Positions 39,935-42,413 of a stretch of 64,000 bases of DNA are shown piece by piece. This DNA comes from Chloroflexota bacterium. Lineage in GTDB: Bacteria; Chloroflexota; Dehalococcoidia; Lucifugimonadales; UBA3495. The first letter of the stretch is position 1. Every line of letters begins with the position of its first letter. Below the pieces are notes generated by a model. It worked only from the letters and a program-made list of their open reading frames with translations. It did no database searches and had not been told where the DNA came from. A program made the translations under genes and the position numbers. The stretch lies in NCBI GenBank assembly GCA_009837355.1, contig VXTR01000063.1, positions 1 through 64,000 on the forward strand. The letters run 5' to 3'.

Positions 39935-40678
39935 CTACTTGTGGGAAGATAGCGTGGCAGCAACGCCGAAGTGGTCGGATAACCGCCGATCGCCGTCCAA
40001 ATTATCAATCGTTGTCAGCGTAGCGGCGGACAGATCGCCGCTGATAGCGATGTGGTCGATGGCGCGCCGACCGCGCAATCCGAGTCCGGCGGTGGCAATA
40101 GTCAAGCCCGACGGACGCGCGGCCTGCATAGTTTTCCGGAGTTCGGCGCGTACCGGCTGGGAGAGGGGAGGGTATGGTCGCCTGCGCTGACCGATTTGTT
40201 GGTTGAAATCGCCCAATAAGACCAGCGGTATTGGCGATCTGTCGGTCAGGATGGGCACCAACGCGTGCAGGTACGCCGAATGGTCTTGCCAAGGCTTTTT
40301 ATTTTTGGCGCCAACGTTCACGTTTGCATTGTGCCAAGGAATGCAGACACCGATGACCATGACCTTGCCAACAGGGGTTTCCATAGCCCCGGCAACGAAC
40401 CGTCCCGGTGGAAGCGTTTCGCTCCCGAAGTCGTCGACGTCTGACCACTGTTGCCGCGACCAGAGCAGAACTTTGCGCCGGTGGTTCGCTGCCCTTTTGC
40501 CGAAATCGGGCCTGGCCTCGATGATATGCCCGCCAAATCCTGAAAGGAGCCGGCAGTCGGTTTCAGTCAAGCAAACAATGTCCGGGGAGTGACGCTGGAT
40601 GCGTTTCAGAATTTCAGGGCTACGCGCCGAGAGGGGCGTAGCCCATTGTACGTTCCAGTTGACGACACTCAGCGCCAT
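39935..40678 (-). CDS. Endonuclease/exonuclease/phosphatase (EEP) family protein
   Basis: A 247-residue single-domain EEP fold: NWNVQW (metal/phosphate Asn), CLTETD (metal Glu), LLGDFNQQ (Asp/Asn) and the final catalytic SDHFG. This set is shared by exonuclease III, DNase I-like and phosphatase members. There are no membrane segments or signal peptide. It starts nine bases after the selenoprotein stop, where GGCGG-TTAG-CCGCC forms a small hairpin over that stop. Nucleic acid or phospholipid/phosphoester substrates are equally possible. Confidence 0.82.
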   Translation of the reverse strand: MALSVVNWNVQWATPLSARSPEILKRIQRHSPDIVCLTETDCRLLSGFGGHIIEARPDFGKRAANHRRKVLLWSRQQWSDVDDFGSETLPPGRFVAGAMETPVGKVMVIGVCIPWHNANVNVGAKNKKPWQDHSAYLHALVPILTDRSPIPLVLLGDFNQQIGQRRRPYPPLSQPVRAELRKTMQAARPSGLTIATAGLGLRGRRAIDHIAISGDLSAATLTTIDNLDGDRRLSDHFGVAATLSSHK

Positions 40679-40687
40679 TTGAGGCGG

Positions 40688-41227
40688 CTAACCGCCGTTG
40701 GTGAGCATTTCGGCGATCTGGCCGGCGTACTCGTGGGCCATCTGGCGAACCTCCGGGATGGAGCGAGTGGCCAGCGGGCTGGGCAGCGCCAATATCTGGA
40801 CGGTCGGCATACCCAGGGATGAGGCGCGCGCGTGGGCGGCCCTGGTAAAACTCTCGGTGATGACGCTCACGGAAGGAACGCCGCGGCTCTCGGTTACTAC
40901 TGTGTCGTGGAGACCCCACGCCGTGCAGCTCCCTCAATCCGCGATTCCGTGCACCACCGCGTCGCATTGGGCCACCAGCTCGTCGATGGTTTCGTCAGAA
41001 CAGGGGGCGCTGAAGCTGAATTTGCGCAGGTACAACACCTTCTCGACGGCGTACTCTTCCTCCAGAATCACCTGCAACTCCTGCAGGAAATTATCGGAGT
41101 GGTACTTACGGTTTTCCAGCAGGCCGATGGTCTTGCCGGCCAGGCCAGGAAGTCGGCCGGCAGCGTCCCGCTCGGCGGTCTTATGCTCCGGACGGGGGTC
41201 CAGAATCTGAATCGTTGCAGTGGTCAT
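40688..41227 (-). CDS. UGSC-type selenoprotein (in-frame UGA read as Sec98)
   Basis: Starting at ATG 41227 (GGAGG seven bases upstream), translation meets TGA at 40936-40934. The frame then continues without stop for 81 codons to TAG. The codons around TGA read GIAD-U-GSCTAWG, exactly the UGSC motif of a known family of selenoproteins and Cys homologues. Sec98 and Cys101 form a CxxC-like redox pair. The total is 179 residues including Sec. A matching SECIS hairpin lies directly after the UGA. The N-terminal part (GKTIGLLENRKYHSDNFLQ) looks like a Rossmann-type fold. The redox role is inferred. selA, selB, selC and selD are not in this window. Confidence 0.88.
40906..40936 (-). promoter_or_regulatory. 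Bacterial SECIS element
   Basis: After the UGA come 13 bases, then a 5-bp stem CGUGG/CCACG closed by the loop GGUCU. The loop begins 18 bases after UGA, the same distance and loop core as in E. coli fdhF. An outer GGAG/CUCC register could compete. Confidence 0.8.
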
Positions 41228-41276
41228 TGCTTTCCTCCATTCATTGACATTGATGGGCAGGATAACAGGGTTCGGG

Positions 41277-42413
41277 TCAGCCGAGCATCTGGTAGTGCTT
41301 GCCCTCGGTCTTGATGGCCGGCGCAATCACCATTTCCGTCTTGTGAAAATCCGGCACCGTATATGCGCCGCACATTCCCATGGCGACCCGCAGCGCGCCT
41401 ACCAGGTTCTGGGTGCCGTTAGTGACACTGGACGGGCCGTGGAGCAGCTGGCGCAGCGTGCCCTTGGTGCCCACGTTAATTCGGGTGCCCCGGGGCAGCT
41501 CCGGGTGGGCGTTTGCCATGCCCCAGTTGTAGCCCCGGCCCGGCGCTTCGGCGGCCTGGGCAAAGGGCGTTCCCAACATCACGCCATCTGCGCCGCTGGC
41601 CATAGCCTTACAGACGTCGCCGCCGGTGCGCAAGCCTCCGTCGGTGATGACGCTGACGTAGCGGCCGGTGCGCTGGAAATAGTCTTCACGGGCGGCGGCG
41701 CATTCCAACGTTGCGGTAACCTGGGGCACTCCGACGCCGGTAACCTCTCGCGTGGTGCAAGCCGCTCCAGGGCCGACGCCCACCAGCACCGCGTCGATGC
41801 CGGTTTCCATTAGCTCGCTGGCGACGTTGTAGCTGACGCAATTGCCAACGACCACGGGCACATTGAGGGATTCAATCAGTTCGGAGAAAATCAGGCCGCG
41901 GTAGCTGCTGGAGACGTGGCGGGCCGTGGTGACGGTGGACTGGACGACGATGATGTCGGCGCCGGCTTCCACGGCCAAGGGGCTGAACCGCTTGGTGGTC
42001 TGGGGGGTGAAGGCGATGGCGGCGACGGAGCCGGCCTGCTTGATTTCCTGCACGCGCTCGCCAATAAGGTGTTCTTTGACGGGTTCGCTGTACACTTCCT
42101 GCAGGTACTCGGTAACTTCGGACTGGTCCATGGAGATGATTTCTTCGAGGACGGAGTAGGGGTCCTCATACCGGGTGTACAGACCTTCGCCATTTAATGC
42201 ACCCAATCCGCCCATTTCGTGCATCAAGGTGGCAAATCGGGGGGAAACGGAGCCGTCCATAGCCGACGCGATGACGGGCGAGTCAAAAGAGTACTGCCCG
42301 ATGCTCATTTGAGTCGAGGTCATCTCCGGATTGATAGTCACTTCGCCGGGGACGATGGCAACTTCGTCAAACCCGTAAGACCTTTCCAATTCCTTGAGCA
42401 AACGCCTGGCCAT
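41277..42413 (-). CDS. guaB3: GuaB3-type IMP dehydrogenase-related protein
   Basis: 378 residues, a TIM barrel without CBS domains. The catalytic loop reads [20 protein letters not shown] with Cys219 in the place of the IMPDH nucleophile. Other family signs are [30 protein letters not shown] and [20 protein letters not shown]. GuaB3 proteins are IMPDH/GMP-reductase relatives common in Actinobacteria and Chloroflexi. GMP reductase activity has been reported for some, so assigning IMPDH activity would be unsafe. It heads the leftward operon containing the selenoprotein, 49 bases ahead of it. Confidence 0.9.

Follow-up and report, generated by a model that had tools for sequence, protein, structure and literature searches.

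The window analysed here is a stretch of 64,000 nucleotides from a Chloroflexota bacterium (contig VXTR01000063.1 of assembly GCA_009837355.1), on the minus strand of which lies a gene with an in-frame UGA codon (Table 1). Its frame opens at the ATG at 41227, runs through 97 codons to the UGA at 40936-40934 and continues for another 81 sense codons to a TAG at 40690-40688. With UGA read as selenocysteine (Sec), the product is a protein of 179 amino acids (...CDAVVHGIAD-U-GSCTAWGLHDTVVTESRGVPSVSVI...) containing the motif U98-G-S-C101. An earlier sequence-only reading of this DNA had given the coordinates and codon counts correctly, leaving the strand unstated. An Rfam scan of the window at the gathering threshold returned a 5S rRNA and one tRNA, and nothing else.

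Table 1. Features of the UGSC locus in the 64,000-nucleotide window
Feature	Position	Strand	Basis or remark
UGSC-family selenoprotein gene, 179 aa, Sec98/Cys101	40688..41227	-	translation with TGA as U; PF24696 and NF041046 matches
In-frame UGA, selenocysteine codon 98	40934..40936	-	aligns with UGA in nearly all relatives, TGC in Cys homologues
Cys101 codon of the UxxC pair	40925..40927	-	conservation at least 90%
SECIS hairpin	40906..40920	-	CGUGG 40920-40916, loop GGUCU 40915-40911, CCACG 40910-40906
Shine-Dalgarno/ribosome-binding site, GGAGG	41234..41238	-	6 nt upstream of the ATG, from sequence
Partner protein, 358 aa	38849..39925	-	no Pfam/NCBIfam model for its family; next to UGSC genes or fused with them at other loci
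Exo_endo_phos (nuclease-like) gene, between the UGSC gene and the partner	39935..40678	-	PF03372, 2.7e-13
IMP dehydrogenase/GMP reductase-domain protein, upstream of the UGSC gene	41277..42413	-	PF00478, 4.6e-49

The protein matches PF24696 at 8.7e-50 (169.6 bits against a cut-off of 25) over residues 7-176 and 171 of the 172 model positions, spanning both flanks of the UGA, and it scores 132.3 bits against a cut-off of 125 with NF041046, the model named 'UGSC family (seleno)protein'. It is a new member of this known and functionally unexplained selenoprotein family, as its U-G-S-C motif had already suggested to the sequence-only reading. PF24696 is present in 80 of 118 genomes from the same genus, family and order, with exactly one internal TGA in every listed match; NF041046 was found in 32 of 301 genomes across the phylum, nearly all of its matches having one TGA. 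The first position of the motif is Sec in nearly all homologues and Cys in a few, and among the relatives examined none was seen to end at the TGA, an outcome that would have spoken against the sequence-only reading. The source genome (3.25 Mb) holds nine UGSC copies (loci L053-L061, on contigs C28, C89, C62, C7, C46, C38, C75, C33 and C64), with a single UGA in every copy and a partner gene for each.

Four distant orthologues share an AWGLHD signature with the window gene (L107, L109, L110 and L111). In the nearest, L107, a PF00478 protein is likewise encoded upstream; in L109-L111 the nuclease-like gene is missing between the two genes and the partner starts 63-115 nt past the UGSC gene. Past the UGA the window gene and L107 differ at 15, 14 and 36 first, second and third codon positions, respectively (80 codons), at 74% amino acid identity; this codon-position bias and identity show that the frame beyond the UGA is coding.

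The SECIS hairpin and decoding of the UGA

The SECIS element consists of the UGA, an interval of 18 nt and a GGUCU loop on a 5-bp CGUGG/CCACG stem; the sequence-only reading had described its spacing, loop and stem length. The published bacterial SECIS model (Fig. 2 of PMC13188914) calls for a stem of 4-16 bp and a loop of 3-9 nt with a G at its first or second base, placed 16-37 nt from the UGA and folding at -7.5 kcal/mol or below; the window element lies within all of these bounds, with its 5-nt GGUCU loop, 5 bp, 18 nt and -12.8 to -17.7 kcal/mol. Its folding energy is not significant (z of -1.3 for a 55-nt piece and -0.5 for a 42-nt piece), a measure that is uninformative since the E. coli fdhF hairpin itself scores no better (z of -0.9).

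Comparison with relatives bears the hairpin out. Across 31 distinct relatives six stem pairs are 91.9% paired, against only 16-55% in slid-window controls, and both sides change in five of the six pairs; 19 compensatory cells were observed compared with 3.4 in shuffles, and none of the 500 shuffles equalled that number. All 52 genes with a serine at the loop spell it AGT, a codon used for 32 of 600 serines in the rest of their sequence (Fisher p 5e-55). The SECIS loop forces the choice of codon at that serine, and the hairpin, judged by covariation and codon choice together, is conserved apart from any protein constraint. In a second set, gathered by searching from the partner protein without use of the UGA, 69 of 75 UGA genes show an NGU loop on a stem of at least 5 bp. 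The UGA, GGTCT and CGTGG/CCACG are retained exactly in all four AWGLHD orthologues, and a SECIS pattern search of the source genome found eight UGSC genes, with zero hits from reversed-pattern controls. Three clear Cys forms (L117 from Sphingomonas, L130 from Natrialba and L138 from Binatia) carry TGC/AGC at the loop codon, and in two of the three the stem is short or lost.

It could be supposed that the UGA is a true stop and that the gene encodes a truncated protein, is a pseudogene or contains a sequencing error, as the stop codon itself and the draft state of the assembly (89 contigs) would allow; such a reading is hardly credible, given the third-position bias and identity past the UGA, the occurrence of UGA at the same codon in scores of genomes, the eight other copies in the genome with one UGA each and the covarying SECIS element. 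Practically negligible is the reading in which UGA is generally a sense codon in this organism, with a reassigned code and no SECIS-driven Sec insertion. It would account for an in-frame UGA, but UGA is the normal terminator of ordinary genes, such as the neighbour at 41277-42413, indicating that the code is not reassigned, and the hairpin or its loop motif is lost where Cys replaces Sec. Moreover, the selenocysteine machinery is encoded in the same assembly: selA (456.8 bits), selB (354.8 bits against a cut-off of 242), selD (382 bits), which also carries an in-frame UGA, and a tRNA-Sec called SeC by ARAGORN, with the anticodon TCA (UCA). A lack of all sel genes, which the sequence-only reading had named as grounds for abandoning it, is thereby excluded. 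On the evidence of sequence and comparison, the codon-98 UGA is almost certainly read as selenocysteine by the SelA, SelB, SelD and tRNA-Sec of this genome, directed by the hairpin 18 nt downstream, which upholds the sequence-only reading.

Two observations on the machinery itself may be added. The UGA of selD lies near the N terminus in the context HCAG-U-AAK (L020 1478-1560, G000:C39), and a thioredoxin gene is found directly upstream of the tRNA-Sec gene (L004 91-421 and 433-529, G000:C56).

Predicted fold and relationship to GrdB and PrdB

The ocean-sampling paper considered a Trx-like fold likely for UGSC proteins and described their UxxC motif as characteristic of thiol oxidoreductases (PMC2398784), and the statement on the fold was repeated later (PMC13188914). 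On that basis the family could be a generic thioredoxin-fold thiol/disulfide oxidoreductase with an incidental neighbouring protein, a reading which we consider improbable. An AlphaFold2 model built with 48 relatives (pLDDT 94.3) has the elements E33-38, H44-58, E63-68, H78-87, E90-96, Sec98, H99-114, E119-124, H125-137, E144-148 and H157-175. It predicts a five-strand alternating alpha/beta sandwich domain rather than the published fold, with Sec98 placed at the tip of strand 3 and the start of a helix. The order of a thioredoxin fold (beta-alpha-beta followed by beta-beta-alpha) does not appear in this prediction, which alternates strand and helix five times without a strand-strand hairpin. 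Fold matches of the model in the PDB are response-regulator (REC), Rossmann-like and flavodoxin-like structures. One chain from the activation complex of methyl-coenzyme M reductase (8s7v_H) repeatedly ranks high in the lists, with Z of 9.9-11.0, a value within the range seen for common alpha/beta folds. Searching PDB sequences with the window protein and with the profiles of UGSC and of the partner gave chance-level rows only.

Profile homology likewise points away from thioredoxin and towards GrdB and PrdB, the Sec-containing subunits of glycine reductase component B and D-proline reductase, with which UGSC was compared because the UxxC context looked alike. PF07355 proteins from related genomes were read on past their own UGA and aligned for hhalign, which matched the UGSC and GrdB/PrdB profiles at 91-92% with a score of 50.3 and Sec on Sec; the score was 38.6 with Sec and Cys masked, compared with a maximum of 23.6 over 40 column shuffles and 21.8 for the reversed profile. 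Curated NCBI models recover the same relationship, TIGR01917 (GrdB) matching 29 of 48 UGSC family members (best 7.7e-7), GrdF 24, GrdH 15 and PrdB 12. The window protein by itself falls below the GrdB/PrdB models, so that the relationship rests on the family profile. By these profile comparisons, UGSC is remotely homologous to the Sec domain of GrdB/PrdB. No relation of UGSC to GrdB/PrdB was found in the literature searched, though it may have been published elsewhere.

The Pfam GRDB match at the PF07355 loci from related genomes (L082-L106) stops immediately short of the Sec UGA; the link to UGSC may have escaped that model for this reason, and PF07355 scans miss the active-site half of the GrdB/PrdB-like genes there. 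These relatives have many short PrdB-like UGA genes with a U-P-x-C motif.

The partner protein and a proposed mechanism

The gene for a 358-residue protein, for which no Pfam or NCBIfam model matches and which public records name 'hypothetical protein', accompanies the UGSC gene almost everywhere. In a first set it is beside or fused to a UGSC gene in 62 of 65 places (two loci were fetched twice, and all nine source-genome copies are included), and in a set seeded with the partner a UGSC gene is beside or fused to it in 74 of 80 loci, some of the exceptions being loci cut by contig ends; the two are always on the same strand. Natural fusions of the two occur in the source genome (L061) and in L062-L067, L070 and L072. 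The ocean-sampling paper mentions a fusion of UGSC to 'Unknown_1' (PMC2398784), which is probably the same partner family. The conserved pairing and the fusions are also at odds with a generic oxidoreductase whose neighbour is incidental. The pair occurs widely among uncultured bacteria from marine and soil settings, with Cys versions in haloarchaea.

The partner has the conserved motifs GW[TS]DGLPxxPPT, NAVMAGC and NGP and a G-rich stretch. Its comparison with the full GrdB profile was negative. That with GrdE/PrdA gave 0.1% in hhalign, beneath the shuffles, and PF09338, the pyruvoyl subunit GrdE/PrdA, is absent from the source genome; the chemistry of glycine reductase cannot simply be copied onto UGSC for these reasons. 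A model of the fused UGSC-partner protein has a pTM of 0.90, and the rows of a fold search with it cover the UGSC half only.

Several variants of the family were seen. The fusions in L062, L065 and L072 form a subgroup with the motif U-S-T-C and a GGTC loop instead of UGSC; that of L072 is preceded by an acetolactate-synthase-like frame, and a thioredoxin-reductase-like gene lies 3' of the fusion in L065 and L072. UGSC-like domains without Sec and Cys (e.g. GDTRSGS) occur in L066 (7388-7894), fused to a partner and adjoining a Sec copy, and in L180 (2062-2505), with a partner close by; they are possibly catalytically dead paralogues. UGA genes that read UGSS (L150 3263-3730 and L160 3399-3896) have no SECIS element at the usual position or with the usual loop, and are either genes with another SECIS placement or decaying copies; these variants show that a resolving Cys is not strictly required.

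A thioredoxin reductase gene stands beside or close to the pair in L065, L072, L074, L203, L204 and L206, of which L203 (Roseovarius), L204 (Variovorax) and L206 (Arthrobacter) are plasmid loci; L206 has a thioredoxin gene as well. None was found in 220 kb of control loci, nor in the 80 partner-seeded loci, so this adjacency is not universal. The commonest neighbour family is that of the tripartite tricarboxylate receptors (TctC), with 21 of 110 neighbours, and TRAP transporters, CoA-transferases, a CoA ester lyase and aconitase X are found as well. Genes resembling phosphosulfolactate synthase lie near Cys-form pairs in L202 (Natrinema) and L206 (Arthrobacter), a possible hint of a sulfonate-related substrate.

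In glycine reductase and D-proline reductase, bond cleavage is thought to run through a selenium-carbon intermediate, with electrons supplied by thioredoxin in the former and by a dithiol in the latter (PMC10298544). By analogy, we infer a complex, its chemistry and its substrate class, in which UGSC and the partner would together form a two-subunit enzyme that reduces a small carboxylate with electrons from thioredoxin, a proposal that is plausible and just short of being favoured. The partner would hold the small carboxylate substrate, the selenolate of Sec98 would attack it with cleavage of a C-X bond, Cys101 would resolve the selenium intermediate by forming a selenenyl sulfide, and the enzyme would be restored by thioredoxin or a different dithiol. 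The redox pair of Sec98 and Cys101 put forward in the sequence-only reading is conserved and plausible; its generic thiol-redox interpretation is sharpened towards a GrdB/PrdB-like catalytic subunit working with a partner.

Alternatively, UGSC could be a GrdB/PrdB-derived Sec subunit whose partner is a regulator or chaperone and not the substrate-binding subunit, in keeping with the lack of any known relative of the partner by sequence in Pfam, NCBIfam or the PDB and of any kinship to GrdE/PrdA. This is rather unlikely, because the strict pairing, the repeated single-chain fusions and the deeply conserved GWTDGLPxxPPT, NAVMAGC and NGP fit an enzyme subunit better. The overall explanation, a UGSC selenoprotein with a GrdB/PrdB-like domain, is in our judgement highly probable, its action as a partner-dependent enzyme considerably less so. 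That the pair represents an uncharacterised class of two-subunit selenoenzyme, combining the Sec domain of GrdB/PrdB with another substrate subunit in place of GrdE/PrdA for thioredoxin-fed cleavage in small carboxylates, is put forward more tentatively.

The UGSC family was already known; what is added is a testable function, the open annotation being turned into an enzyme hypothesis by the kinship to GrdB/PrdB, the constant partner and the occasional thioredoxin reductase. If it is true, the published fold assignment would be corrected, and one reason would be suggested for the retention of selenium machinery by uncultured Chloroflexota. In the literature searched, no paper treats both SAR202 and selenoprotein. 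Standard gene callers would truncate all nine UGSC genes of this genome, that of the window included, at the UGA.

Comparison with known systems

Compared with the UGSC family as represented by PF24696, NF041046 and the Global Ocean Sampling paper, the window gene is the same in its full-length match, its UGSC motif and its bacterial SECIS element, and it agrees with a family in which Sec is common and Cys forms are rarer. Its loop is GGUCU (Gly-Leu) instead of the usual AGUGU (Ser-Val), and a nuclease gene splits it from its partner; otherwise it is essentially as the rest of the family.

The E. coli fdhF element, whose geometry the sequence-only reading had called the same, reads UGA, 18 nt and then GGUC(U) in the genome records, so that the spacing and the loop letters do agree. 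The likeness of the stems is approximate only: the fdhF fold includes a bulged U, and its 4-nt GGUC loop closes on an A-U pair, whereas the window stem is an unbroken 5 bp without a bulged U, and the two proteins differ.

GrdB, GrdF and GrdH (TIGR01917, PF07355) and PrdB (TIGR04483) resemble UGSC in the Sec domain, the aligned Sec codon, the UxxC motif and the UGA with its SECIS element, and GrdB/PrdB is one of two subunits, to which UGSC with its partner may be likened. However, UGSC is without the N-terminal half of GrdB and without the pyruvoyl subunit GrdE/PrdA, to which its partner is unrelated in sequence, and many of its hosts, unlike the setting of GrdB/PrdB, are not anaerobic amino-acid fermenters.
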